From Candidatus Halobonum tyrrellensis G22 (lineage in GTDB: Archaea; Halobacteriota; Halobacteria; Halobacteriales; Haloferacaceae): 64,000 nucleotides of DNA. Positions within the stretch are counted from its first letter, which is position 1. The number at the start of each line of letters is the position of its first letter. A program made the translations under genes and the position numbers. Where the stretch lies: the NCBI RefSeq assembly GCF_000495475.1, contig NZ_ASGZ01000002.1, forward strand, positions 62,001 through 126,000, in the 5' to 3' direction. This document shows, one piece after another, positions 5,309-33,243 of this stretch. The notes beneath the pieces were generated by a model that saw only the letters and a program-made list of their open reading frames with translations, had not been told where the DNA came from and searched no databases.

Positions 5309-5875
5309 TCAGCCGAGAACGTACCCGAGCGCGGGGTACTTCTCGATCAGCGGTTCGCCGTCGACCTCGTACTGTTCGACGTAGGTGTCGAGTCCGAGGA
5401 TGCGGCCCGCGCCGAACGCCGCGACCGAGAGGAACACCAGCATGTACATGAAGTCGCTGTTGATGACCCCGTGGGCGATGTCCCAGTTGCCGAAGTAGAA
5501 CAGGATCATCATGAACGCCCCGAAGAACGCCGCGAGGCGGGTCAGCAGGCCGACCATGACGCCGAGGCCGATGGCTACCTCGCCGAACGGGACGGCGACG
5601 TTGACGACGTCGACGAACCAGGGGGTCTGACCCATCCACAGGAACAGCCCCTCCAGCGGGTTGCCGTTGGTGCCGGCGGCGTTCGTGAGGTAGCCCGCGG
5701 CGCTGAAGCTTCCCGAGAGCACCTTGTCGAGCCCGGAGTAGAGGAACGCGAATCCGATGACGAGACGGAGCGCGAGGACGAACCACGCGCTGAGGCTGTG
5801 CGCACGACCGGTAACTGTGAGGTCGCCGATCCGGCTTTCGAACGTGTTGGGGGCGGTCGGAGTCATCTGTTTCAC
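5309..5875 (-). CDS. DoxX family membrane protein
   Basis: A 188-residue protein with four transmembrane helices and the DoxX signature: SAWFVLALRLVIGFAFLYSGLDKV in helix 1, then VAVPFGEVAIGLGVMVGLLTRLAAFFGAFMM across helices 2-3. DoxX proteins are associated with redox and quinone functions in the membrane; the haloarchaeal type has no defined reaction. A GTG at 5875 and an ATG at 5866 are both possible starts. A weak TATA-like GATATAG at 5900-5906 would start transcription close to 5875, so leaderless translation from either is plausible. It appears monocistronic. Confidence 0.85.
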   Translation of the reverse strand: MKQMTPTAPNTFESRIGDLTVTGRAHSLSAWFVLALRLVIGFAFLYSGLDKVLSGSFSAAGYLTNAAGTNGNPLEGLFLWMGQTPWFVDVVNVAVPFGEVAIGLGVMVGLLTRLAAFFGAFMMILFYFGNWDIAHGVINSDFMYMLVFLSVAAFGAGRILGLDTYVEQYEVDGEPLIEKYPALGYVLG

Positions 5876-19646: not shown

Positions 19647-20246
19647 CTACTCCGAGCGGCGGTCGGCGGTCCGCCGCCGAGTCGCCAGTCGCCAGAGCGT
19701 GCCGACGCCGGGGAAGCCGTCGAGCGCCCAGACGCCGAACAGGACCGCCGCGAGAACGAGTTGGAAGCCGAACCCGCTCGTCAGGAGGTCGGTCGGCGAG
19801 AGCGACGAGAGGTATCGAAACTGCCCCTCCCACCGCTCGAGGTGATAGAGGAGGCTGTCGGCGGGGTACGTCGGGGCCGGGAGGAACGGCCACAGGAGGA
19901 ACCCGACGCGGCCGAACTCCCCCGAGAGGAGCGATCCGTACGAGTCGCCGAGGAGGTGGGTGAGGGCGCCGACGGAGAAGGCGCCCGCGAGTTCCGACCG
20001 GCCGTAGCGGCGGGCCGCGAGGGCGACGACCACGCAGAGCGGGACGACCGTCACCAGCGAGTGGCCGACCGCGCGGCCGTCGTAGACGCCGAACCACCAG
20101 TTGAGCGGCTTGTCGACGAGGTCTGGAAACTGCGTCCCGAACGCGACGACGAGAGTCCCCACCCCGCTCGGCGTCCGCCGGTACCACACCCGGCTGCCGA
20201 CCGTGTAGACGAGGTAGCCGACGGCGAGGTGTCCCCACGGCATCAT
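19647..20246 (-). CDS. YdjM-like membrane-bound metal-dependent hydrolase
   Basis: A 199-residue membrane protein of the YdjM/DUF457 family (putative metal-dependent hydrolases). It has MPWGHLAVGYL at the N-terminus, FGTQFPDLVDKP near residue 36, AVGHSLV near 60 and LTHLLGDSYGS near 93: four short motifs with the His and Asp residues thought to bind metal in this family. Hydrophobic helices lie between them. Function in archaea is unknown. It is convergent with the MATE gene and divergent from the ABC transporter. Confidence 0.82.
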   Translation of the reverse strand: MMPWGHLAVGYLVYTVGSRVWYRRTPSGVGTLVVAFGTQFPDLVDKPLNWWFGVYDGRAVGHSLVTVVPLCVVVALAARRYGRSELAGAFSVGALTHLLGDSYGSLLSGEFGRVGFLLWPFLPAPTYPADSLLYHLERWEGQFRYLSSLSPTDLLTSGFGFQLVLAAVLFGVWALDGFPGVGTLWRLATRRRTADRRSE

Positions 20247-20435: not shown

Positions 20436-22217
20436 ATGTCGATCCTCTCTCGCGAGAAACTGTCCGCGCTCTCGGAAGCGGTCCGGTTCAGGCCGGGCCT
20501 CGGTATCGCCATCGTCGTCCTCAGCTTCGGGACGGCGTTGCTCGAAGGGATCGGGCTCGGGTTCCTCCTCCCCATCCTCGAACTCACCCGGTCGTCGACG
20601 ACGCCGACGGACGCCGAGGGAGTGCTCGGCGTGTTCGTTCGGGTCTACTCGTTTCTCGGAGTACCGCTCACCCTCGAGTACCTGATCCTCGGCATCGCCA
20701 GTGTGATGACCGTCCGGTTCGGTCTGAGCTTCGTCACCGGGTGGCTGCAGGCGATTTTGAGCCTGAGCTACCAGCGTCACCTCCGTCAACGACTCTTCGA
20801 GTCGCTGGTGTACGGGCCCATCGACTACATCGACCGGACGGGATCGGACGAACTCCTCAACAGCGTGATCACGGAGACCAACCGGGCGGGCGGTATCGTG
20901 ATGGCGGCGTTCAAGATAGCGGAGGTCCTCCTCCGCGGCGCCGTCTACCTCGCCATCGCCGCGGTACTCGCGCCGACGCTGACGCTCGTCGCGCTCGTCG
21001 GACTCGGGGTGAGCACGCTCTCGGTCCGGTACGTCCTCGAACCCGCCTACACCGTCGGTGACGACGTGGCGGACGCGAACGACCGGATCCAGACCATCTC
21101 CCAGACGGGCATCCAGGGGATGCGCGACGTCCGTCTGTTCAACCTGCGGTCGGAGTTGGTCGACCAGATGCGGAGCGTGCTCGGCAGCTACGTCTCGGAC
21201 AGCGTCGAACTCAGGCGGAACCAGGCCGCGCTGAACAGCCTCAACCAGCTCACGAACGCGCTCGTCGTCTTCGGGCTGGTGTACGCCGGCTTCCGGTTCA
21301 CCGGTCTCTCGCTCGCGCGGCTCGGCGTGTTCCTCTTCGCCGTCTTCCGGCTCTCGCCGGTCGTGAACCAGGTCAACAACGCGCTGTACCACCTCGACGG
21401 ACAGCTTCCCCACCTCCTCCGCGTCGACGCTCGACTCGACGAACTCGCCGAGCGCACCTCGCCGGACGCCGCCGGCGAGCGGCCGGTCGACTCCGTCGAC
21501 CGCGTCGAGTTCGACGGCGTGTCGTTCTCCTACGGAGACGGCGAGGAGGTGCTCCGGGACGTGTCGTTTGCGGTCGAGCGCGGCGAGAAGGTCGCGCTCG
21601 TCGGTCCCTCGGGCGCGGGCAAGTCGACGGTCGTCTCGCTCCTCGGCCGCCTCCAGACGACCGACGCCGGTCGCGTCCTCGCGGACGGCGTCCCCGTCGA
21701 CGAGTTCGACGTCGAGCAGTGGCGCTCGCGACTCGCCGTCGTGCGTCAGAACCCGTTCATCTTCGACGACACCCTGTGGGAGAACGTGACGATCGGGAAC
21801 CGCGACGCCTCCCGGGAGGCGGTCGAGCGCGTCTGTGAGGTCGCACGCGTCACCGAGTTCCTCCCCGAGTTGCCCGACGGGTACGAGACGGAACTCGGCG
21901 AGGGGGGGATCCGGCTGTCGGGCGGCCAACAGCAGCGCGTCGCCATCGCGCGCGCACTGCTCAAGGACGCCGACGTGTTGGTCCTCGACGAGGCGACGAG
22001 CGAACTCGACTCGAACATCGAGCGGGAGGTGTACGAGGGTATCCGGTCGCTCGAAGACCGGTACGCGACGATCAGTATCGCACACCGCCTCTCGACCATC
22101 GACGACGCCGACCGCATCTACACGCTCGTCGACGGCTCCGTGACGGAGGTCGGAACCCACGACCAACTTCTCGACTCCGACGGGACGTACGCCGACCTGT
22201 ACGCCACCCAGTCGTAG
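20436..22217 (+). CDS. ABC transporter, fused permease-ATPase (putative lasso-peptide exporter)
   Basis: A 593-residue half-transporter. Residues about 15-320 form a six-helix exporter-type membrane domain. Residues about 345-590 are the ATPase, with Walker A GPSGAGKST at 390-398, Q-loop VVRQNPFIFDD, signature LSGGQQQR at about 494, Walker B VLVLDEATSELD and H-loop SIAHRLST. It should act as a homodimer. ATG 20436 is chosen because earlier in-frame sequence is antisense to the neighbouring gene. Its position beside kinase, precursor and lasso-processing genes makes it the likely D-type exporter and immunity protein, although lipid-linked glycan export cannot be excluded. Confidence 0.88.
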   Translation: MSILSREKLSALSEAVRFRPGLGIAIVVLSFGTALLEGIGLGFLLPILELTRSSTTPTDAEGVLGVFVRVYSFLGVPLTLEYLILGIASVMTVRFGLSFVTGWLQAILSLSYQRHLRQRLFESLVYGPIDYIDRTGSDELLNSVITETNRAGGIVMAAFKIAEVLLRGAVYLAIAAVLAPTLTLVALVGLGVSTLSVRYVLEPAYTVGDDVADANDRIQTISQTGIQGMRDVRLFNLRSELVDQMRSVLGSYVSDSVELRRNQAALNSLNQLTNALVVFGLVYAGFRFTGLSLARLGVFLFAVFRLSPVVNQVNNALYHLDGQLPHLLRVDARLDELAERTSPDAAGERPVDSVDRVEFDGVSFSYGDGEEVLRDVSFAVERGEKVALVGPSGAGKSTVVSLLGRLQTTDAGRVLADGVPVDEFDVEQWRSRLAVVRQNPFIFDDTLWENVTIGNRDASREAVERVCEVARVTEFLPELPDGYETELGEGGIRLSGGQQQRVAIARALLKDADVLVLDEATSELDSNIEREVYEGIRSLEDRYATISIAHRLSTIDDADRIYTLVDGSVTEVGTHDQLLDSDGTYADLYATQS

Positions 22218-22318: not shown

Positions 22319-23230
22319 ATGAATGGAAGCGGGCCGTATTACTACTCCGCGTACGACCTGACGATCCGGTCCACGTTCGATCTTCCGGAGCTACCGTCGG
22401 TCGAGCGAGACGAGTCGGATATCGACGTCGAGTTCGTTCACGGAGCAGTCGAGCCCGTCCCCGAATCGGTCGAAGGGGTCGGGGGTCGTCGTATCGAGGC
22501 GACGGCGGGTGCGTGCCGACTCACGTACGAGTCGGTCGGGTCGTTCCTAGTCGAGGGAGGTCGACGCATCGTCTGCGACCCGCTCTCGGGGGACGTTCCG
22601 GAACGGGACGTCTTTCGTCGATTGCTGGAAAACGAGATGCTCGGCTTGATACTGTACCAACGCGACCACCTCGTCTTACATGCCAGTGCCGTTTCGGTCG
22701 ACGGCCGAGCCGCGGTATTTCTCGGTCCGAGGGGTGCGGGGAAGTCGACGACCGCCGCGGCGTTCCAGACGAACGGCTATCCCATGCTCGAAGACGACGT
22801 AGTCGGGATCCGGTTCGACGACGACGGGCCGACGGTGGTCCCGGGTGTCCCGCAGTTGCGGCTGAAACCCGACGCGGCGGCGGCGCTCGGGGTCACCGAG
22901 GCCTCCACTCCCGCTCCCGACTCCTGGTACGAGAAGCGGTACCTGCAGGTCGACGAGGTTCCCGATCCCGCCCCGCTCGCTTGGTGTTATCTCCTCCGGG
23001 ACGGTGACCAAGTCGGGTTGGAGGAGGTGTCCGGATCGGATCGATTGTTGGAACTCATCTCGCGCACACATGCACGTGGACTGCTCTCCGATACGGAGCA
23101 GTCACCGGACCACTTCGAACAGTGTTCGCGCGTCGCCCAGATGATCCGGTTCGGGGAGTTAAAACGACCACGAGATCACGCTGTGCTCGGGTCGATCGTC
23201 GACACCGTATCCGAGAGTATGAGGTCGTGA
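22319..23230 (+). CDS. HPr-kinase-like P-loop protein of a lasso-peptide cluster
   Basis: A 303-residue protein. After an N-terminal beta-rich region (about 1-110), it has LVLHASAVSVDGRAAVFLG leading into a P-loop GPRGAGKST at 136-144, then LEDDVVGI, the acidic segment following the P-loop in HprK/P-type kinases. This arrangement is found in the HPr-kinase-related proteins of lasso-peptide clusters; in Paenibacillus such a kinase phosphorylates the C-terminal serine of the peptide. Here it is convergent with the precursor gene and ends 41 nt from it. Peptide phosphorylation is a plausible but unproven role: the predicted precursor has Ser49 and Thr50 near, not at, its C-terminus. Confidence 0.78.
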   Translation: MNGSGPYYYSAYDLTIRSTFDLPELPSVERDESDIDVEFVHGAVEPVPESVEGVGGRRIEATAGACRLTYESVGSFLVEGGRRIVCDPLSGDVPERDVFRRLLENEMLGLILYQRDHLVLHASAVSVDGRAAVFLGPRGAGKSTTAAAFQTNGYPMLEDDVVGIRFDDDGPTVVPGVPQLRLKPDAAAALGVTEASTPAPDSWYEKRYLQVDEVPDPAPLAWCYLLRDGDQVGLEEVSGSDRLLELISRTHARGLLSDTEQSPDHFEQCSRVAQMIRFGELKRPRDHAVLGSIVDTVSESMRS

Positions 23231-23271: not shown

Positions 23272-23436
23272 TTACTTCGCCGGCTGGGTCGAACCGACGA
23301 CGACGCCGTTAGTCGCCTCCGTGTACTGGTCAGGCTTCAGTCCTTGCTTGTTTAGCTTTTCAGTGATCTGTTCAACCGAGCCGAATTCGGTAACTTCGGG
23401 AGACGTGTACTCCCGGTTTGATTGGCTGCCTTTCAT
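23272..23436 (-). CDS. putative lasso-peptide precursor (54 residues)
   Basis: An ATG at 23436 starts a 54-codon frame ending TAA at 23274-23272. The leader contains Y10-x2-P13-x-V15-x3-G19-x5-T25, matching the lasso leader consensus YxxPxLxxxGxxxxxT that the B1 (PqqD-like) protein recognises. The segment after Thr25 is the presumed core. If cleaved at the usual spot two residues after Thr25, it begins Lys27 and the first acidic residue (Asp36) is at position 10, unusual for a lasso ring. Starting at Leu28, Asp36 is position 9. Starting at Gly32, Glu40 is position 9, a classical Gly1-Glu9 ring, with a tail ending VVVGSTQPAK. Codon use is AT-richer than in neighbours. Directly upstream, on the same strand, lie the cyclase, B2 and B1 genes. 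Confidence 0.75.
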   Translation of the reverse strand: MKGSQSNREYTSPEVTEFGSVEQITEKLNKQGLKPDQYTEATNGVVVGSTQPAK

Positions 23437-23567: not shown

Positions 23568-25454
23568 TCACCGTGCCGAATCACGTTTCTCAGGCTCGTA
23601 CGCGTCGACCCAAACGGACAGCGAGAGAGCACGCCACAGCGAGCGCGCATCCCGTGTGTCGTTCGACCCGACGAAGCGATCGTACGCCTCCTGTAGCGCG
23701 GTCGGGTCGATGTACGCCTCCACCGGTCCCGGGTCAGCGACGAGGCGTCGAAGCCGTTCGTCCTCGCGGGAGAGTGAGTTCCAGAATCCCTGGCTCATGT
23801 CCGTCTTCCAGGGCCGTCTCCGAATCTTCTCCGGGAGCCGGCCCCTGAGCGACCGCCGAATGATCGACCGGGTCCACCCATCGGAGAGCTGCTGCGACGG
23901 GGGAATCGCGAGGGAGAACTCGACCAGCCGCTTGTCGGTGAACGGGTACCACGGTTCGACATCGAACGCTGCAGTCGCGAGGTCGGTCGTTTCGAGGCTC
24001 GCGGTTATCATCCCCGACAGGAGCGAGCGATACTGACGCCGACGGCCGGTTTCGGTGAGGAAGGCGGTGTTCGACTCCCGACCCTTCAGCCGTTCTCGGA
24101 TGCCCGACCGTTCGGCGAACTCCGGGTTCAGAGTCGGGTTCTCCCGGTCGTTCAAGACCGGTTCCCCCCGTAGTCGGCGACGAACTCTCCTCACCGGAGG
24201 TGGGAGGAGTGGTTCCACGGCGTTACTGAGGAACAGACGGTGTCGTCGCGCACCCCCGACCTCTGACATCGCCTGGATCTGGGTAAACAGCTGCCACCAG
24301 CGGCCCGTCCGCAGTAACTCGCCCAACAGCCCGAGCCCGTATCCGGTGGCGCTGTCACCGAGCGCACCCTCCAGGAGGACATCCACTCCGGTTTCGTCCG
24401 CACGTTTCGCCCGTTCCCAGATAGCGTGGTGCATCGTGTCGTGCGGCGGCACGTCGTAGTGTTGCATCATCCGCTCTCGGTCCCCGAACGACCCGACATC
24501 GTCTAGGAACACGTAGTGGGGCACGATCCCCTCCCGTTGGGTCACCGTCTCGATGAAGTCACGTTCGTCCGCGGCGGGGGCGTCGTCGTACACGTTCGAG
24601 AACGCGTGGAGCGGTTGGTCCGTCCGCAGGAACTCGCGAGCCGTGACAGTGATCGACGACGAGTCCAGACCGCCGCTGAGCGCGGTACCGACGGTACCGC
24701 TCGCCCGGAGCCGACAGTCGACCGCCTGGTCGAACAGTTCGCGGAACCGACGCTCGTAGGCCGCGTCCGACCCGAGCGTGACCGTCCGGGTCGGGTCGAG
24801 GTCCCAGTACTGCCACCGGTCGGACCCGTCGAGCCGAACGCGGGCCGCGTGTGCCGGGGGGAGCCGACTCAGGTCCCGGTAGTACGTCCGCTCCTTGTCG
24901 TCGAACAGGCCGACGAGGAAGTCCCCGACCTTCGTTTCGTCGACGGTCCTCGAGACGAACGGGAGCGTCAACAGCGCCTTCAGTTCGGTCGCGACCGCGA
25001 ACGCGTCGGCACCCTCGTAGTAGTACAGCGGCTTCACGCCGAACCGGTCACGGCCGCAGAACACGGAGCCGTCGTCGGCGTCCCAGATCGCGAACGCGAA
25101 CGCGCCGATCAGGTGGTCGACGCACGCGTCACCCCACTCCCGGTAGGCCGCGAGCAGGAGACGACTATCCGGGATCGGATGGCCGGGGTCGGGAACGTCG
25201 AGCGTCTCGAGCAGTTCGCCTCGGTTGTCGAGACGCGCGTCCGAGACGACGACGAGTCCGTCCTCGCGGTACGGCTGGTCGTCGAACGCGGACTCCGGCG
25301 TCGTCCGTAACTGCTGGTGTCCGAGCGCGACGGCGTCGTCACACCACGCTCCCCGGCCGTCGGGACCGCGGTGGTCGATGGCGTCGAGCATCCCATCCGC
25401 GTGGTCGACGGCTCCCACCCCACCTCGATCGAAGATGGCGACGATCCCGCTCAC
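23568..25454 (-). CDS. asparagine-synthase-like lasso cyclase (C protein)
   Basis: A 628-residue protein. Residues 1-200 resemble the glutaminase half of asparagine synthetase B, but the protein starts MSGIVAIFD, so the catalytic Cys2 is replaced by Ser and glutamine hydrolysis should be lost, as in McjC-type cyclases. The synthetase half has the ATP-binding SGGLDSS motif at 260-266. In lasso pathways this enzyme adenylates the ring Asp/Glu side chain and couples it to the core N-terminus. GTG 25454 overlaps the B2 stop codon by 4 nt, showing translational coupling. An exopolysaccharide AsnB-like role is the alternative, but B1/B2 neighbours argue for lasso. Confidence 0.86.
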   Translation of the reverse strand: MSGIVAIFDRGGVGAVDHADGMLDAIDHRGPDGRGAWCDDAVALGHQQLRTTPESAFDDQPYREDGLVVVSDARLDNRGELLETLDVPDPGHPIPDSRLLLAAYREWGDACVDHLIGAFAFAIWDADDGSVFCGRDRFGVKPLYYYEGADAFAVATELKALLTLPFVSRTVDETKVGDFLVGLFDDKERTYYRDLSRLPPAHAARVRLDGSDRWQYWDLDPTRTVTLGSDAAYERRFRELFDQAVDCRLRASGTVGTALSGGLDSSSITVTAREFLRTDQPLHAFSNVYDDAPAADERDFIETVTQREGIVPHYVFLDDVGSFGDRERMMQHYDVPPHDTMHHAIWERAKRADETGVDVLLEGALGDSATGYGLGLLGELLRTGRWWQLFTQIQAMSEVGGARRHRLFLSNAVEPLLPPPVRRVRRRLRGEPVLNDRENPTLNPEFAERSGIRERLKGRESNTAFLTETGRRRQYRSLLSGMITASLETTDLATAAFDVEPWYPFTDKRLVEFSLAIPPSQQLSDGWTRSIIRRSLRGRLPEKIRRRPWKTDMSQGFWNSLSREDERLRRLVADPGPVEAYIDPTALQEAYDRFVGSNDTRDARSLWRALSLSVWVDAYEPEKRDSAR

Positions 25455-25897
25455 GATTCGCCGTCCTCGTCGAGCGGGGGCAGGGGCGTGAACCGCGAGA
25501 GGTCCTCCACCTCCCCGATCAGGATGTCGTCCCCGTACTCGAGCCAGCTGTGCGCCTTCATCCCGCTCTCGACGGCGGTGTCGACGCCGATCCGATGGAC
25601 CGGGGTGTACCCGTACAGCCTGAGGAGCGTCTCGGCCGTCAGCGACCGGACCAGACAGGTTCGGTCCCCGGGAAGCCCGCGGTCGGCCACGTCGACCGCG
25701 CCCGCGACCCGAGCGGGCGTCGGGTCGCCGGGGACGACCGGCGCTGCGGCGTCGCCAGCCCACAACAGCAGGTCACGAAGCCGGGCGAACGACCCGACGA
25801 CGACGCCGACCGAGACCGTCACCAACAGCGCCGCCGCGGTCAGCAGCCGCGCCTGATCGCCGAACCCGAGCGACAGAGCCGTCGAGAGCGTCCTCAT
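25451..25897 (-). CDS. lasso peptide biosynthesis B2 protein (leader peptidase)
   Basis: A 148-residue protein with a hydrophobic N-terminal segment (about 18-36) and a transglutaminase-like cysteine protease core: Cys81 in RTCLVRSLTAETLLRLYG and His116 in KAHSWLEY, with an acidic third residue likely just after. This Cys-His layout and spacing match the B2 (McjB C-terminal) peptidase that removes the leader peptide using ATP-dependent activation in the lasso complex. ATG 25897 follows the B1 stop by 13 nt; an overlapping ATG at 25921 is a weaker alternative. It is in an operon with B1 and the cyclase. Confidence 0.85.
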   Translation of the reverse strand: MRTLSTALSLGFGDQARLLTAAALLVTVSVGVVVGSFARLRDLLLWAGDAAAPVVPGDPTPARVAGAVDVADRGLPGDRTCLVRSLTAETLLRLYGYTPVHRIGVDTAVESGMKAHSWLEYGDDILIGEVEDLSRFTPLPPLDEDGES

Positions 25898-25910: not shown

Positions 25911-26198
25911 TCACTCCGCATCGACCGTGACGAGGTCCTTGTCGGCCAGTTCCGCGAGGAGTTCGTCGACGTCCTCACGACACCGGTCGTACCCCACGTC
26001 GTACTCGTCGGTTACCGCCTCGTACACCTCCTCGACCGTGTGCGGCTCTTGAAGCGACTCCCAGACGAACGTGCCCACCTCGTTGAACCCGTAGTACTTC
26101 CCCGCGTCGGTGTGGAGGACGACCGTCTCACCGTCGATGGTCGTCGAGAGGCAGTTCTCGGCCGCCACTATCTCGTGTGAATTATCGAACGTGTTCAC
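25911..26198 (-). CDS. PqqD-like lasso leader-recognition protein (B1)
   Basis: A 95-residue PqqD/RRE-fold protein: short strands (CLSTTIDGETVVLHTDAGKY), the conserved YYGFNEVGTFVWESL, then a winged-helix-like HTVEEVYEAVTDEYDV and a C-terminal helix (CREDVDELLAELADKDLV). RRE proteins bind the leader of RiPP precursors and deliver it to the peptidase; here the leader motif of the 23272-23436 peptide is the expected ligand. The start is GTG 26198 with an AGAGGGG ribosome-binding site about 8 nt upstream. It is first gene of the B1-B2-C operon. Confidence 0.87.
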   Translation of the reverse strand: MNTFDNSHEIVAAENCLSTTIDGETVVLHTDAGKYYGFNEVGTFVWESLQEPHTVEEVYEAVTDEYDVGYDRCREDVDELLAELADKDLVTVDAE

Positions 26199-26378: not shown

Positions 26379-27557
26379 TCAGCCCCGGTCGAACAGCCGT
26401 CCGACGAGGTCACGCCCGATCCGATACGGTCGGACGAGGTAGTAGAGCGGGTAGAGACTCGGATTGAGCGACATCGACTCGAAGTCGACCTTGCGCGGGG
26501 AGAAGACCACGTCGACGAGTTCGAGAGCGGACCCGACGAGACCGTCGTTCGAGAACAGGACGGTCGCTATCGGCTCCAAACGGAGCGACGTACACAGCGG
26601 GTCCCGTCGAAGGAACGAAGCGAGGAGCGAAGCGCTCAGGCCGTACTGGGGGTGTTCCTCGAGTTCGCGTTCTACAGCCGTCGGTAACCGTACCTCGGCC
26701 AGTCTCGCTACGACAGCAAGCCCGAAGAGCACGGCACTCCGCCAGTCGTACCGGTCGGCGCGCGCCAACACCGTCTCCCAGGCCACGTCCCGCTGGAGGA
26801 GCAAAGCGACGTCGCACACCCACGACAACCGGCGCCAGCCGTGTTTCGTCCCGTGGACGAGGAGGAGCATCGCCCTGTCCTCCGGGGAGAGCACCGGTAC
26901 GGTGCGCCCGGTGAGCGAGAGCGGCGTACGCCGGGCCCACAGCTCGTCGAATATCGTCGCGTCCGGACGACTGCCGCCGATGAACTCGAAGCGCAACTCG
27001 ATCGGGATCTGGTCGTCGTGGTTCAGGAATCGGAACTCCTTCCCCCACCGGAACACCGTGCCGTCGACCAGCGTCTCGGGTCGGACGTCGGAGTAGTTCG
27101 TCTGTTCGTACCCCAGTTCCAAGAGGAGTCGACGTGCGTCTAGGACGTCCTCCTTCGCGACGAGAAAGTCGAGGTCCCCGTACCACCGGAGACCGGGGTC
27201 GTCGTACGCGAACTCGGCGACCACGGGCCCCTTGTACGGTATCGCTCGGATACCCTCGTCGTCGAACTCGCCGTGAAGGGTGTGGAGACGGTGAACGCAC
27301 CGCAGGTTTCGCATGGCGTTTTGTCGGTGAAGCGAGTTGACTCGGCGCCGCACCTCGACGGGAGCGAGATCTGAGGCTCGAACCGTGGTGAACGCGGTGT
27401 GGAGTTGCGAGATCAACGAGTGGTGCCGTGCCAGGTCGACTACCCGCGTCCAGTCCGTGACTTCCAGTGCCGCCTTCACCAAGCATCGAGGGTCGTCGGG
27501 GGACGAGGCGAACGAGAGTAGCCTGAACAGGAAGTCCGTCTCGGGGTCCGTCCTCAT
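26379..27557 (-). CDS. nucleotidyltransferase family protein associated with lasso clusters
   Basis: A 392-residue protein of the uncharacterised nucleotidyltransferase group (PF14907-like). Helical N-terminus, then YKGPVV near 108, and the nucleotidyltransferase signature WYGDLDFLV with Asp128 and Asp130 as metal ligands. Further on, a helical region includes LLLVHGTKHGWRRLSWVCDVALLL, characteristic of the family. Such genes recur in lasso-peptide and capsule loci; whether they nucleotidylate the peptide or a sugar is unknown. ATG 27557 is preferred to the in-frame ATG at 27596. It ends 181 nt before the B1 start and is on the same strand as the B genes. Confidence 0.8.
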   Translation of the reverse strand: MRTDPETDFLFRLLSFASSPDDPRCLVKAALEVTDWTRVVDLARHHSLISQLHTAFTTVRASDLAPVEVRRRVNSLHRQNAMRNLRCVHRLHTLHGEFDDEGIRAIPYKGPVVAEFAYDDPGLRWYGDLDFLVAKEDVLDARRLLLELGYEQTNYSDVRPETLVDGTVFRWGKEFRFLNHDDQIPIELRFEFIGGSRPDATIFDELWARRTPLSLTGRTVPVLSPEDRAMLLLVHGTKHGWRRLSWVCDVALLLQRDVAWETVLARADRYDWRSAVLFGLAVVARLAEVRLPTAVERELEEHPQYGLSASLLASFLRRDPLCTSLRLEPIATVLFSNDGLVGSALELVDVVFSPRKVDFESMSLNPSLYPLYYLVRPYRIGRDLVGRLFDRG

Positions 27558-27931
27558 CGGGGGTTGTCTTCGGCCTCGAATCCCGGGTCGATACACACGG
27601 GGTGGCCCCGATTACGTCGGCGTCTCATCGGGTTGTCCGCTCCTTCGGGGGACTGTCGACTCCGATATCGGGCGACCCGACTGTCCACACACCGCCGTCG
27701 TCCGCCGACCCGAACGAGAGCGCACATCGTGGTAATTCCCTCAGACCGAACTGATCGGCTCACTGGTCATAACCCTATCGTGATGTGAATGGAGGGTCGA
27801 ACGAGGGAGCGACCGGGACGACTCGTCAGTGAACGGATCGACGGTGCCGGGAGATCAGCGGTCGTGAATCGAAAGAGGGAGATTTGGTTCAAGGTAAAGC
27901 TATATGCGCCCAACCAGATTCTGTACCCGTA
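27558..27931. other. divergent intergenic region with TATA box at 27899-27906
   Basis: About 370 bp without a supported gene between the nucleotidyltransferase and the sulfatase-like gene. GCTATATG at 27899-27906 lies 29 nt before ATG 27932 and is the likely promoter for the glycan operon that follows. Confidence 0.55.
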
Positions 27932-29194
27932 ATGACCTGTGCAGGGGATCGCGTGATCCTGTTGTCGGCCGACGCTCTCCGCGCGGACCACCTCTCGTGT
28001 TACGGCTACCACCGTGACACCTCTCCCGTTCTCGACGAGTTCGCGGAGGAGAGCGTCCGGTTTACGAACGCGTACAGCGCGAGTTCGCACACGCGCGAGG
28101 CGGTACCGGCGCTGCTCACCGGGGAGTTCCCCGACGTGGCGGTCGGAGCCGACTACCGGCTCGCGACCGAGACGGTGGCGTCGACGTTCGCCGAGGCGGG
28201 GTACGCGACGGGGGGGTTCCACTCGAACCCGTACGTCTCCCGGGCGTACGGGTTCGACCGGGGGTTCGACGAGTTCGACGACGACCTCCACCTCGGGAGG
28301 CACAAGCTCGTCGCGCTCGCACAGCGGGCGCTCGACAAACTGCGGAACCGCCACTACGCGCGTGCGGCGGAGATCAACGACCGGGCGCTCTCGTGGCTCG
28401 ACTCGCTCGGCGACGAGCCGTTCTTCCTGTGGAACCACTACATGGACACCCACGGGCCGTACGAACCGCCCGGCGAGTACGCGACGCTCTACCGCGAGTC
28501 GGAGGTCTCCGACCGCGACGCTCAGTCGCTCTACCGACGGGCGATCAGGGAGCCGGAGTCGATCACGCCCGACGAGCGCGACCTCCTGGTCAACCTGTAC
28601 GACGCCGAGATCCGGTACAACGACGAGAAGATCGGCGAGTTCCTCGACGCGCTCCGCGAGCGCGGCCTACTGGAGCGGTCGCTGGTGGTGGTGACCGCCG
28701 ACCACGGCGACGCGTTCGGCGAGCACGGCTACTACGAGCACCCCCGGTACCTCCACGACGAGACGACGCACGTGCCGCTGTTCGTCCGGCCGCCGGGCGG
28801 CGCCGACGGGGAGACGGTGTCGACGCCGGCGAGCACGCTCGACGTCGCGGCGACGTTCGAGCAGTTGCTCGGCCGGGACGTCGGCGCCGGGCGCGCGTCG
28901 CTGCTCGACCGGAACGAGACCGACCGGACCGTCTTCCTGCAAGCCCGCGGCGAAGACGACCACGCCGACGTCCGCCGGTACGCGGCGAAGACGCGCGAGG
29001 GGTCGTGTTACTGCGAGCGCGACCGGGAGTCGGGCGCGGTCGAGTTCGGCGACTCCGGCCGCGACCTGCGGAGCGACCTGGAGGCACACGTCGACCGGCG
29101 GGTCCGAGCCGAGAACGGCGAGGGCGGACCCGAGGGGGAGGCGGAAACCGAGGAGATCGAACGGCGGTTGAGCGCGCTGGGGTACAAGGAGTAG
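27932..29194 (+). CDS. sulfatase-like hydrolase (alkaline phosphatase superfamily)
   Basis: A 420-residue protein of the sulfatase/phosphoglycerol transferase superfamily. Metal-binding SADALRADHLSCYG is near residue 11. The nucleophile region is SASSHTREAVPALLTG, with Ser/Thr rather than the Cys of Cys-type sulfatases. HYMDTHGPYEPP is near 170, and TADHGDAFGEHG near 256 gives the second metal site. No signal peptide or membrane helix. It probably cleaves or transfers sulfate, phosphate or a phospho-group on glycans. The C-terminus ends RLSALGYKE, a tail shared by four other such proteins in the window. ATG 27932 is set by the TATA box. First gene of an operon with the GT4 gene one base downstream. 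Confidence 0.86.
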   Translation: MTCAGDRVILLSADALRADHLSCYGYHRDTSPVLDEFAEESVRFTNAYSASSHTREAVPALLTGEFPDVAVGADYRLATETVASTFAEAGYATGGFHSNPYVSRAYGFDRGFDEFDDDLHLGRHKLVALAQRALDKLRNRHYARAAEINDRALSWLDSLGDEPFFLWNHYMDTHGPYEPPGEYATLYRESEVSDRDAQSLYRRAIREPESITPDERDLLVNLYDAEIRYNDEKIGEFLDALRERGLLERSLVVVTADHGDAFGEHGYYEHPRYLHDETTHVPLFVRPPGGADGETVSTPASTLDVAATFEQLLGRDVGAGRASLLDRNETDRTVFLQARGEDDHADVRRYAAKTREGSCYCERDRESGAVEFGDSGRDLRSDLEAHVDRRVRAENGEGGPEGEAETEEIERRLSALGYKE

Positions 29195-29195
29195 G

Positions 29196-30353
29196 ATGGA
29201 CGACTCGCTACGCGTCTGTCTCGTCTCCAAGCAGTTCCCCCCCGGCGTCGGCGGCGGGGAGACGTACGCACACGAACTCGCGAACGGGCTCGGGGAGCGA
29301 GGACACGACGTCGACGTCTACACCCAGTGGGTCGACAGCCCCGACGAGAGCGTCGACACCCACGAGAACGTCACCGTCCACCGGGTCTGTAAGGCGCGCC
29401 GGAAGTTGGTCACGTTCGAGACGCTGTACTTCAGCTACCGCGTCCGGCGAACCGTCGACCTCGAACGGTACGACGTGGTCCACGGGACGCTCATGCCCGC
29501 GTCGACGGTCGCGGTGACGCCGTTCACCGACGTCGACGTCCCCGTAGTGCTGACGAGCCACGGAACCTCGGTCGGGGAGGCGAAGGCGGTGGCGCTGGAG
29601 ACGCCCGCGGACTACCTGCTGAAGTTCTTCTTCCACCCGACGAACGTGGTGATGGACTACGTCGCCAGCCGGGACGCGGACGCGGTGATCGCGATCAGCG
29701 ACCACGCCCGCGAGCAGTTGACGACGGTCTACGGCCTCGACGAGAGCGACGTGGAGACGATTCCACACGGGGTGGATACGGACCGGTTCTACCCGCGGGA
29801 GGAACGGCATCCGGCGGTCGACCCGGAGCGGTTCACCGTGCTATACGTCGGCCGGCTCGGAGCGAGGAAGGGGCTGGGGCTCGCGCTGCGGGCTGTCGCG
29901 GAAGTCGACGACCCGAACGTCGAGTTCCTGATCGCCGGCACAGGACGACACGAGGCCCGACTGCGCGAGCTAGCCGAGGAGCTGGGCGTGAGCGAGCAGG
30001 TCCGGTTCCTCGGGTTCGTCCCCGACGAGCAGCTCCCGACGCTGTACTCGTCGGCGGACGTGTTTCTGTTACCCTCGCGGTACGAGGGGTTCGGACTCGT
30101 GTTGCTGGAGGCGATGGCGTGCGGGACGCCGGCGATCGGGGTGGACGCGGGAGGGATTCCGACGGCTGTCGAGAGCGCCTCGAGCGGTATCGTCGCCGAC
30201 CGAACTCCGGAGGCGGTCTCGAACGCGATCGGTCGGATCCTCGATCGGTCGCGCGAAGGTGACGCGAGAGTGTCGTCGACCGACGACCGACGGATGTCGT
30301 GGGAGGCGACGATACGACAGGTCGACGACGCGTACGCGAAGCTCCGCGCATGA
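29196..30353 (+). CDS. family 4 glycosyltransferase
   Basis: A 385-residue GT-B enzyme: SKQFPPGVGGGETYAHELANGL at the N-terminus, VLYVGRLGARKGLGLALRAV near residue 213, then SRYEGFGLVLLEAMACGTP near 290, carrying the donor-phosphate glutamates. The start is immediately after the sulfatase-like stop (1-nt spacer), and the stop overlaps the next gene's ATG (ATGA). The three genes are thus one translationally coupled unit, pointing to synthesis of a modified surface glycan. Sugar specificity cannot be read. Confidence 0.9.
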   Translation: MDDSLRVCLVSKQFPPGVGGGETYAHELANGLGERGHDVDVYTQWVDSPDESVDTHENVTVHRVCKARRKLVTFETLYFSYRVRRTVDLERYDVVHGTLMPASTVAVTPFTDVDVPVVLTSHGTSVGEAKAVALETPADYLLKFFFHPTNVVMDYVASRDADAVIAISDHAREQLTTVYGLDESDVETIPHGVDTDRFYPREERHPAVDPERFTVLYVGRLGARKGLGLALRAVAEVDDPNVEFLIAGTGRHEARLRELAEELGVSEQVRFLGFVPDEQLPTLYSSADVFLLPSRYEGFGLVLLEAMACGTPAIGVDAGGIPTAVESASSGIVADRTPEAVSNAIGRILDRSREGDARVSSTDDRRMSWEATIRQVDDAYAKLRA

Positions 30354-32203
30354 ACTGGAAGTACACGTCGGTACGGGTGGTCCGAAAGTACGCGGCGATT
30401 CCGGTCGCCCTCTTCTGTCTCCTCGCGTTGTACGTCTTCGTCTCGATCGGATACCGTGCGGTCCTCGGTCCCGTCCTCGGTGGCGTCGTCGGCGGCCTCG
30501 TGGCCGTCGTCGCGCTCGTTCTCTTCGACGCCTCGACCGAGCTCCGTTCCACGACCGACGGGGATCAGTCGCCGGCCGACTATCGGATATCGATAGCTCT
30601 CGCCGGCCTGTACGTGACCTCGATACTCGTCCTCTACCGACTGGTGTCCTACCAGCGGCCGTGGGTCCACTACGCCATCTTCGGCGGGTACGCGGGGTAC
30701 GTCGCCTACGATATCGCGACCGGCGCGAGCCGGAGACGGGTGGTCGCACAGCTGCTCGTCCTCACGTTCGTAACCTACTGGAGTACGCAGTTCGCGTTCC
30801 CCGCCGGGATGTACGGCCCGGACACCAAGTACCGCTACCTCCCCGCGGTCCGGACCGCTCTCACCACCGGCTACGTCTCGCTATCGCAACTCATCTACCT
30901 CGGGCACCTCACCTACGTGACCGCGACGACGGTGCTGATGGGGGTCTCCGCCCAGTTGGGCTACTACCTCCTGTCGGTCGTGGTCCTCACCGGGACGCTC
31001 CTCGTCATCTCGGTGATGGACGTCACGCTCCCGGCGATTCCGGACCGGGTCGCGCTGTACGCCGCTCTGATATTCGGCTGTATGAGCTGGACGCTCGGTC
31101 GTGGGTTCCAGCCGAACAAGCTCAACTTCTTCTACCCGCTCATCATCCTCGTCGGGATAGCTACGTTCGGGATCTTCATCCACAGGAGGACGCATCGTCG
31201 CTGGCTGGCGATCGCCGTCGTCGTCTCGCCCGCGATCATCTTCGGCCACCAGTTCAGCGCCGGAGCCGCGCTCGTGTTCCTCCTCACCATCGGGCTGTTC
31301 ACCTCGGTCGTCGTCTCCACTCTCCGAGAGGAGTACAGAGTCGTCTCGTACGGGTCGACGCTCGCGTTCGTCGCCGCCTACGGGCTCGGCATCTTCGGCA
31401 ACCCGATCCACTCGGGGGCGCTCCTCGGTCGGATCGTCGGGCTGTTCAACTCCATCTTCGCGCCCGCGGGCGGTGTGAGCGTCGGCGGGACCGCGGCGGG
31501 CGGTCCCGGCCGCTACTCGCAGCTCCCGCTCGACCTCCTGTTGGTTAACACCGCCGCGCAGGCGCTGCTGTTCGCGCTCGCCGTGTTCGGGGCCGCCGTC
31601 GCGCTCCGTCGCTCCAGGTGGGAGTTCGACTTCGGCATCGCCTGGATGGGGGTGCTCGCGGTCCTGCTGTTGGTCGGGCTGGTGTTCAACTCCGCGGACA
31701 CCCAGCCCCAGCGCTTCTACTCGCTGCTCGGACTGTTCGGGCTGAACGTCTTCGCCGGGGTGACGCTCGTCTGGCTCTGCGAGAACGGCCTCCCGGTCGG
31801 GCGGAAGACGGTCGCCGGGGTCGTCGCCGTGTTCTGCGTGCTGAGTTTAGTGTCCCCTGTGGCTGGTATGCACCTCTCGCCGTCCGGCGACCGGATCCCG
31901 CACTTCCAGCGGTTCGACCGGTCCGAGTCGATAGCCGGTGAGGAGTGGAGGGCGGAGTACGTTTCCGGAGAACCGACGAAAGAGTACAGGAGGATCGACG
32001 GATCGAGTGTTACGATCGATACTTCAGGGATGGTGGAGGGGTCCGTGTACACGTACGACCTCACCTCGCGTACGAGTGGGGTGGTCACCGACGTGGGGCT
32101 GAGTCTCGGCGGTCGACAGTTCGCGTTCGTACTGTTCGATCAAGACCCGAAGGAGGGCCGAATCTACACGAACGGGCGGTACGATGCGTATCGCCACGGG
32201 TGA
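30350..32203 (+). CDS. polytopic membrane protein of a glycan operon
   Basis: A 617-residue protein with about thirteen hydrophobic helices up to roughly residue 510, followed by an extracytoplasmic-looking tail of about 100 residues rich in Ser/Thr/Tyr. SGDRIPHFQRFDRSE begins that tail. The general layout resembles polysaccharide polymerases or GT-C glycosyltransferases, but I see no clear catalytic DxD or family motif, so no reaction is assigned. ATG 30350 overlaps the GT4 stop by 4 nt. Its position after sulfatase-like and GT4 genes suggests a role in glycan assembly or polymerisation. Confidence 0.7.
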   Translation: MNWKYTSVRVVRKYAAIPVALFCLLALYVFVSIGYRAVLGPVLGGVVGGLVAVVALVLFDASTELRSTTDGDQSPADYRISIALAGLYVTSILVLYRLVSYQRPWVHYAIFGGYAGYVAYDIATGASRRRVVAQLLVLTFVTYWSTQFAFPAGMYGPDTKYRYLPAVRTALTTGYVSLSQLIYLGHLTYVTATTVLMGVSAQLGYYLLSVVVLTGTLLVISVMDVTLPAIPDRVALYAALIFGCMSWTLGRGFQPNKLNFFYPLIILVGIATFGIFIHRRTHRRWLAIAVVVSPAIIFGHQFSAGAALVFLLTIGLFTSVVVSTLREEYRVVSYGSTLAFVAAYGLGIFGNPIHSGALLGRIVGLFNSIFAPAGGVSVGGTAAGGPGRYSQLPLDLLLVNTAAQALLFALAVFGAAVALRRSRWEFDFGIAWMGVLAVLLLVGLVFNSADTQPQRFYSLLGLFGLNVFAGVTLVWLCENGLPVGRKTVAGVVAVFCVLSLVSPVAGMHLSPSGDRIPHFQRFDRSESIAGEEWRAEYVSGEPTKEYRRIDGSSVTIDTSGMVEGSVYTYDLTSRTSGVVTDVGLSLGGRQFAFVLFDQDPKEGRIYTNGRYDAYRHG

Positions 32204-32214
32204 GCGACCTACGC

Positions 32215-33237
32215 TCAATGCCCGATTTCGGAGAGTAGTTCATGGAACTGCCTTCGAAATATCTCCTTTTGCGTCTTACCGTCGTACCTCCGTCCCCGGC
32301 GTTCAGCGGTCGCGGACATAGTCTCCCGTTCCGAGACGTCCCTACCAAAGTAGCCGGCCACACCGTCAGCGATACGTTCCGCCGAGGGTTCTACCACCAA
32401 CTCGCTGCTCACGCGTTCCGCCTCGGTCTTGTTACCGGTCGTCGTCGTCACGAGCGTCGGGAGACCCGCTCGAAGCGCTTCGAGAACGCTGACGGGGTAA
32501 CTGTCCGCGCGCGAGGGCTGGACATACAGCGACGCCCGTTCGAACTCGGCGCACAAGTCGTCAACGTATCCGCGGACGGTCACTCCCGGCTCTTGGTCCA
32601 ACTCGGGAGGGTAGCCACTGCCGACCAGTCTGAGACGCGCACCGGGGAACCGGTCTCTAACCAGTCGCCAGGCGTCGACGAGGATATCCTGCCCTTTGTA
32701 CTGCGCGAATCCGCCGACGGTGACCGCGGTGTTGGAAGCCAAGTCCGGGGTGACCGTTCCTAACTCGTCGTACAGATCCGGCTGGATGTAGGGGTGGGCA
32801 ATCCGGGTCGGGGCGTGGACTATCTCGTTGGTGTACTCGGCGGTGAACTCCGACACCGCGATCACCCCGTCGATGTACCGGTTGAAGGCCGTCTCCATCG
32901 CACTCATCCCGTATCGTCCAATCAAGCGGTTCAGAAACGGTTGGTCGTCCTCGTGACGACGGACTTGGTACAGCGACTGGTCGGCAGCGATGTAGATAAG
33001 CGTCGAATCGGAGAACAGTTGATGAGAGAGACTGCCGTACAAAGAGCGCGTTCCTTCGGCGATACAGACGTCGTACTCCCCCATCAGGAGACCATTGAGT
33101 ACCTCGACCGGTATCGTCCCCGCGACTCTGTCTACGGAGCACGTGTTGAGACCGTACAGGTCCGCGTCGATGGCGTCGGCGAAACCCTGGTGAGACGGGT
33201 GGGGACTCTCCCCGCAGTGGATCATCACTACCTGCAT
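32215..33237 (-). CDS. family 4 glycosyltransferase
   Basis: A 340-residue GT-B protein. The acceptor half is short (MQVVMIHCGESPHPSHQGFADAI). The donor half has AVTVGGFAQYKGQDILVDAW near 168, LRLVGSGYP, and SRADSYPVSVLEALRAGLP near 248-266, the equivalent of the ExFGxxxxE loop with Asp in place of the first Glu. It starts 7 nt after the stop of the sulfatase-like gene to its right and is transcribed with it. It is convergent with the membrane protein gene. Confidence 0.85.
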   Translation of the reverse strand: MQVVMIHCGESPHPSHQGFADAIDADLYGLNTCSVDRVAGTIPVEVLNGLLMGEYDVCIAEGTRSLYGSLSHQLFSDSTLIYIAADQSLYQVRRHEDDQPFLNRLIGRYGMSAMETAFNRYIDGVIAVSEFTAEYTNEIVHAPTRIAHPYIQPDLYDELGTVTPDLASNTAVTVGGFAQYKGQDILVDAWRLVRDRFPGARLRLVGSGYPPELDQEPGVTVRGYVDDLCAEFERASLYVQPSRADSYPVSVLEALRAGLPTLVTTTTGNKTEAERVSSELVVEPSAERIADGVAGYFGRDVSERETMSATAERRGRRYDGKTQKEIFRRQFHELLSEIGH

Positions 33238-33243
33238 GTCGGC

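Follow-up and report, generated by a model that had tools for sequence, protein, structure and literature searches.

Variable spacers ahead of a conserved Lys–Asp block in precursors of possible lasso-type peptides from Haloarchaea

How might a lasso-type precursor close its ring when the usual cut frees an unusual first residue and no acid stands at the usual distance from it? This question is raised by a 54-codon open reading frame (ORF) on the minus strand of a 64,000-nucleotide stretch of Candidatus Halobonum tyrrellensis G22 (contig NZ_ASGZ01000002.1, positions 62,001–126,000), a stretch that we call the window throughout and whose numbering we use below. An initial annotation had recognized in this ORF the leader residues Y10, P13, V15, G19 and T25, all of which lie where it placed them, and had counted three ring starts, again correctly: Lys27, freed by a cut two residues after Thr25 (the Thr(-2) rule), with Asp36 at position 10; Leu28, with Asp36 at position 9; and Gly32, with Glu40 at position 9. 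The precursor is laid out as follows:

23272..23436 (-), precursor peptide gene (A), 54 residues, product MKGSQSNREYTSPEVTEFGSVEQITEKLNKQGLKPDQYTEATNGVVVGSTQPAK
23359..23436 (-), leader M1–E26, YxxPxV...G.....T, with Thr25 at 23362–23364
23350..23358 (-), variable spacer K27-L28-N29, linking the Thr(-2) cut site to the conserved block
23329..23349 (-), conserved putative ring block K30-x-G32-x-x-x-D36 ("K-block"), with K30 at 23347–23349 and D36 at 23329–23331
23290..23295 (-), G48-S49, conserved tail GS (kept in 24/26 precursors), candidate phosphorylation site

The precursor family and its conserved block

The leader carries the YxxPx[LV] motif with Thr at a fixed distance that is expected of lasso precursors. 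This pattern occurs in a short ORF once in the window and in none of 60 third-order Markov shuffles, so that the ORF is more than a chance match. Two NCBIfam models, lasso_cyano and lasso_leader_L3, match the precursor weakly, both below cut-off, and a TTTAAG/TTTATA-like box was seen by eye ~25–35 bases ahead of the ATG; most homologues have one too. Its identity as a lasso-type precursor was borne out by the lasso-type cluster around it and by homologous precursors in other genomes, and no better candidate with the searched leader pattern was found near the window's cyclase. The core departs from the usual pattern in two respects: the first acid by the Thr(-2) rule stands at position 10, outside the usual 7–9, and position 1 is Lys27 and not a small residue (Gly, Ala, Ser or Cys), although the latter is not strictly required, as metanodin illustrates.

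A profile built on the precursor matched 31 of 391 Halobacteria genomes, and a lasso B2 peptidase scored over cut-off in 31, with 30 genomes in both lists. A cyclase belonging to the window's clade is encoded in 17 haloarchaeal genomes (14 from the set of 391, together with G397, G445 and Halosimplex salinum), each of which has one or more homologous precursors; in the related Halopiger xanaduensis cluster, no gene is entered at the precursor in the PLSDB gene table, which is incomplete. Across cyclases more broadly, 98 loci were scanned for the leader pattern, 20 of which had no such ORF, and three chance ORFs out of 106 (L105:8320, L139:5435 and L142:392) were dropped before counting. Near haloarchaeal cyclases we found 34 leader-bearing ORFs, 26 of which, chosen for their similarity, make up the haloarchaeal alignment; the eight left outside are two duplicates (L064) and six with other cores (L035:13192, L040:4712, L148:3028, L039:4301, L055 and L146).

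Lys30 and Asp36 are invariant in all 26 aligned precursors (entropy 0). Among the 25 non-redundant ones, Gly32 is kept in 24, the residue before Lys is Asn or Asp in 24, and the leader Tyr lies 15 residues from Thr in every case. The distance from Thr to Lys, on the other hand, is 4 (12 precursors), 5 (7), 6 (2), 7 (2) or 8 (2), which, under the Thr(-2) rule, places the Asp at position 9, 10, 11, 12 or 13 (10 in the window; first acid at 10–13 in the long-spacer relatives). Counted from Thr, all columns are variable; counted from Lys, the K, the D and nearly all G are fixed. Lys and Asp thus always stand i,i+6 apart while the spacer changes in length, extra residues being found only before Lys. 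Two spacer lengths can even be served by one enzyme set, as at L043 and L034, each with one Asp10 and one Asp11 precursor.

Because the same departure recurs in homologues from other genera, it is not a quirk of a single sequence, and the initial suggestion of a departure from the usual rule, be it in ring chemistry or in cleavage site, holds family-wide, given the variable Thr-to-Asp distance. The alignment proposed at that stage as a check upheld Asp36 (25/25) and Gly32 but not the position of Glu40 (acidic in 15/25), and brought out the equally invariant Lys30 and the variable spacer, both of which had been missed. The C-terminal Lys, which had also been singled out, is not conserved, whereas the GS a few residues earlier is. 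In both precursors of L034 (7427–7576 and 3118–3279) this GS reads GD, as if a phosphorylated Ser had been replaced by Asp.

The block is also found in bacteria. At the 80 cyclase loci nearest to the window's, we counted 69 bacterial precursors, of which 58 have an acid at position 7–9, nine a first acid at 10–13, and two none in reach. A Lys stands six residues before the acid in eight of the nine with a first acid at 10–13 (the exception being L106), compared with four of the 58. The bacterial block reads K-x-x-G-x-x-D, against K-x-G-x-x-x-D in Haloarchaea, and comes from Rokubacteria, Acidobacteria, Dehalococcoidia and cyanobacteria. Profile searches matched eight of 339 cyanobacterial genomes, with a K-block in four (G453, known before, and those of L194, L195 and L199), adding four K-block precursors in three genomes, one of them with Asp14 (L195); the Thr-to-Lys distance reaches 9 in one cyanobacterium. 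The same search in Acidobacteria matched two of 247 genomes and returned only the two K-block precursors already found. Overall, an acid at 7–9 is missing in 12 of 16 unique bacterial K-block precursors and in 5 of 56 others (Fisher p = 5e-7, uncorrected for kinship). Upstream of the Lys nothing is conserved in the bacterial members: the preceding residue is T, N, R, P, G, D, Q, L or A, the one before it includes Pro in three rows, and some members thus have Pro at either of these two positions.

Candidate amines for ring closure

Taken together, these patterns point with some force to Asp36, which is very probably the ring acid. That Lys30 donates the amine is a closer call, somewhat short of even, and so is our overall reading, in which A encodes a macrolactam peptide of lasso type, from a K-block subfamily of its own, with a ring closed by Lys30. 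More tentatively still, we propose that the cyclase joins the side chain of Lys, rather than the N-terminus, to the Asp six residues on, leaving a free N-terminal tail, in Haloarchaea and in scattered bacteria; the leader cut might then no longer set the ring, so that the spacer would be free to vary. In such a scheme, the RRE protein B1 would grip the leader, the peptidase B2 would most likely cut two residues after Thr25 and leave the short spacer K27-L28-N29, and the cyclase C would activate the Asp36 side chain. The amine would most likely come from the Lys30 side chain (epsilon-amine), giving a 26-atom ring; less likely, it would be the alpha-amine of Lys30 after a cut just before this residue (Lys1–Asp7, 22 atoms). 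The kinase would probably phosphorylate the tail, plausibly at Ser49 of the conserved GS, to judge from its position next to the precursor, while the nucleotidyltransferase may decorate the peptide and the ABC protein is proposed to export it.

Besides the invariant Lys and Asp at a fixed distance behind spacers of changing length, the recurrence of this block in bacteria, and the lack of conservation upstream of the Lys there, three further observations favor Lys30 as the donor, most likely through its side chain. First, the residue following the Thr(-2) cut is Gln or Asn in 27 of 43 K-block precursors versus 3 of 61 others, and Gly, Ala, Ser or Cys in 5 of 43 versus 43 of 61, a gain and a loss which suggest that the cut stays in place but that the ring has ceased to begin at the freed residue. 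Second, B1 aligns to TfuB1 and TbiB1, and its Tyr35, invariant in 18/18, aligns with a Tyr of TfuB1; it is probably the same residue as Tyr33 of FusE, part of the pocket for Thr(-2) (PMC10368454; here and below, papers are cited for excerpts). Together with the constant Tyr-to-Thr distance, this invariant Tyr suggests that cleavage still occurs at Thr(-2); if the cut is fixed while the spacer varies, Lys30 holds the only amine at a constant distance from Asp. Third, a Lys(i)–Asp(i+6) side-chain ring has 26 atoms, the same as a Gly1–Glu8 lasso ring, whereas alpha-amine rings would have 25 atoms for Asp8, 28 for Asp9 and 31 to 40 for Asp10 to Asp13.

Several observations weigh against this proposal. 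To our knowledge, no lasso cyclase that uses Lys is known; a literature search for one found none, and no position in the cyclase alignment separates K-block cyclases from the others. Seventeen of the 43 K-block rows, 13 from Haloarchaea and 4 from bacteria, are compatible with an ordinary ring of 9 residues under the Thr(-2) rule, and the spacer never falls below the length for such a ring save in L146, as would be expected if the K-block descends from 9-residue rings. Three precursors without a K-block also have their first acid at 10 or 11 (L106, L196b and L198). Moreover, four bacterial members were found with a profile already holding the Lys, and the haloarchaeal rows were chosen by similarity. 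Finally, the trait is clustered on the cyclase tree and yields only five independent pairs (median sign-test p = 0.5), so that the link between K-block and long spacer is not shown to be independent of descent; the tree count of seven changes is rough, as the loose label used for it also took L079 and L146 as K-block. L146 itself (5579–5740), outside the clade, has a Thr(-2) core that begins KRGRGQD (Lys1, Asp7) and continues as a low-complexity, R/G/Q-rich stretch; here both Lys amines would lie at the ring start.

The alternative that survives best, though we consider it unlikely, is an ordinary alpha-amine ring to Asp36 with a moved or trimmed N-terminus. The distance between Thr25 and the B2 cut would vary, or trimming by an aminopeptidase would follow the Thr(-2) cut, leaving Asn29–Asp36 (8 residues) or Leu28–Asp36 (9 residues). 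Lasso rings usually have one of these two sizes, and in the caulosegnins both are made by a single set of enzymes (PMC13352647). The near-constant Asn or Asp before Lys in Haloarchaea fits such a start, and Asn1 is proven in the lasso peptide metanodin (PMC12670498), which keeps Asn29–Asp36 viable if the cut has moved or been trimmed and so also counts against a Lys side-chain ring. However, neither the spacing from the leader to Thr nor the B1 Tyr varies, as one would expect of an unmoved Thr(-2) cut, and no peptidase besides B2 was recognized among the window genes compared. Nor is there a conserved ring start before Lys in the bacterial members, where nine residue types directly precede Lys and Pro occurs at either of the two positions before it; the lack of conservation and the Pro residues disfavor a ring start there.

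Less probable again is an enlarged alpha-amine ring after the Thr(-2) cut, spanning Lys27–Asp36 (10 residues) in the window and 9 to 14 residues across the family. It retains the usual cut and the usual amine, and the shortest members would be exactly 9-residue rings. Two cyanobacterial paralogues of L196 without a K-block, AFGNPAIND (D9) and AFGQQPNVAD (D10), differ by one residue inside the ring and hint at a natural 10-residue ring. On the other side, reviews give 7–9 residues (PMC9266682), a change of ring size by one residue lowers yield (PMC13352647), and our literature search for 10-residue lasso rings gave none. Such rings would need 28 to 40 atoms and more, and would leave unexplained both the invariance of Lys and the confinement of insertions to the stretch before it.

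That the product stays linear and phosphorylated, with the cyclase serving another precursor, is very unlikely. Haloarchaeal clusters without a cyclase do share B1, B2, kinase, nucleotidyltransferase and exporter, and linear polyphosphorylated relatives (LPPs) are described in Bacillota (PMC13381572), but a K-block precursor lies beside the cluster in 17/17 genomes with a cyclase of the window's clade, Asp36 is invariant, and the window's cyclase has no second ORF with the searched leader pattern nearby. A Gly1–Glu9 ring, which would need a cut before Gly32 and was among the initial options, can practically be dismissed: lasso peptides start with Gly more often than with any other residue, and Gly32 is nearly constant, but the acid eight residues on is kept in 15/25 only, the position being otherwise K, G, S, N, P or T, against 25/25 for Asp36, and this option was rejected on conservation.

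The surrounding cluster and other haloarchaeal clusters

Genes for an RRE/B1 protein, a B2 peptidase and a C cyclase occur together next to the precursor, the combination expected of a lasso cluster, with cyclase, B2 and PqqD models over their cut-offs:

19647..20246 (-), YdjM-family membrane protein
20436..22217 (+), MsbA-type ABC exporter
22319..23230 (+), HprK-like kinase K, His121-Lys142-Asp159-Asp160 (TIGR04352 match under cut-off, E 6e-9)
23568..25454 (-), macrolactam (lasso) cyclase C (NF033535 E 9.8e-180, over cut-off; Asn_synthase)
25451..25897 (-), leader peptidase B2 (NF033537 E 2.2e-26, over cut-off)
25911..26198 (-), RRE protein B1, PqqD-like (PF05402 over Pfam cut-off; NF033536 below its cut-off)
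26379..27596 (-), nucleotidyltransferase-family protein (PF14907), also a feature of paeninodin-like clusters; the real start may be 27557

C, B2, B1 and the nucleotidyltransferase gene lie upstream of A on the same strand, and the kinase gene, followed by that of the exporter, is convergent with A. Glutamine-dependent asparagine synthetases use Cys2 as their glutaminase nucleophile; C has Ser at this position, invariant in the 15 haloarchaeal cyclases aligned, and its identification as an asparagine synthetase was rejected accordingly. A search of solved structures returned no B2 relative and, for C, only amidotransferase-type relatives. The kinase keeps the His-Lys-Asp-Asp motif named for lasso kinases (PMC9266682), as in paeninodin-type clusters. 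Beside the cluster, the window holds sulfatase-like (as read from the translation) and glycosyltransferase genes (27900–33240). The Halopiger cluster adjoins flippase and sulfatase-like genes (names from the record), and a "metal-dependent hydrolase" gene adjoins the exporter there too, as the YdjM-family gene does in the window. This glycan-locus setting is reminiscent of the capsule-locus setting of Bacillota paeninodins and LPPs (PMC13381572).

Other haloarchaeal clusters were observed alongside this type. Eleven loci (L041, L042, L044–L046, L048–L050 and L052–L054) have no cyclase in the stretch examined, but encode B1, B2 (by family search), kinase, nucleotidyltransferase and exporter, with precursors of 30–32 residues such as MKEYETPSVETYGTVEEKTNWWDHDDGYGKWS; they resemble LPP clusters, but with B2. 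Of 16 genomes with this type that were searched whole, six yielded no cyclase relative at E 1e-10. At L033 (12726–14874), a cluster without a cyclase holds a tandem array of five very small precursors, whose cores are mostly of the SEP or GSEP type. At L047 (9535–9678 and 8233–8657), where B1, B2 and kinase genes likewise occur without a cyclase, the neighboring leader-bearing ORFs have cores rich in glycine, one of them composed almost wholly of Gly. L039 (4301–4435) has a second leader-bearing ORF beside a second kinase gene, with the core SGGTNDNAQCFSRAGKSDDYNPNC, two Cys and no acid at 7–9. Finally, L035 (13192–15424), L040 (2787–4846) and L148 (1096–3159) encode a second cyclase, ~38% identical, beside a canonical precursor (G1–D8, e.g., GRHFSRVDGNSGTTG); as these genomes also hold the K-block system, they offer a natural control pair.

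Relation to known systems and significance

The closest family models for the window's cyclase and leader are those of cyanobacterial-type lasso peptides (NCBIfam lasso_cyano and lass_lactam_cya), which share the split B1/B2 and the YxxPxL...G.....T leader. Most of those sampled retain Thr(-2) together with an acid at position 8 or 9 and have no K-block, which is present in a cyanobacterial minority (L082, L085, L112, L194 and L195). Paeninodin/pseudomycoidin-type clusters of Bacillota share the kinase, nucleotidyltransferase, ABC exporter, B1, B2 and C (PMC9266682). The window differs from them in a leader Tyr in place of Trp, in the variable spacer before the ring, and in lacking a C-terminal Ser as phosphate acceptor: the peptide ends in Lys, and the conserved GS inside its tail (with GD in the two L034 rows) is a natural candidate for the kinase. 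BsfA of Bradymonas likewise belongs to a kinase-bearing lasso cluster, in which BsfK phosphorylates its Ser3, and has a non-standard leader position, Ile(-2), but it forms an ordinary Gly1–Asp8 ring (PMC10368454). Metanodin, with Asn1, demonstrates that a lasso ring can start with a residue other than Gly, Ala, Ser or Cys, yet it follows Thr(-2), and no K-block is reported for it in the excerpt cited (PMC12670498). LPP loci share the RRE, HprK-like kinase, nucleotidyltransferase, MsbA-like exporter and glycan-locus setting, but as described in the excerpt cited they have no cyclase and a signal-peptidase-like leader peptidase (PMC13381572), unlike the window with its cyclase and B2.

In a 2012 mining paper, lasso producers reportedly included an archaeal phylum. 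The literature searched yielded no account of the K-block or of the variable spacer, nor did an isolated archaeal lasso peptide turn up there; mentions of haloarchaeal lasso clusters at the level of antiSMASH exist (PMC10093198). The family suggests cutting or ring closure in a way not yet described, and mining rules based on the Thr(-2) mark and an acid at 7–9 would miss or mis-cut it. If Lys is indeed the amine donor, these cyclases would form a class making side-chain-to-side-chain lactams with a free N-terminus, which would be of use in peptide engineering. Even on the other readings, precursors with two spacer lengths and one enzyme set provide natural paired substrates for probing how B2 and C choose their sites.
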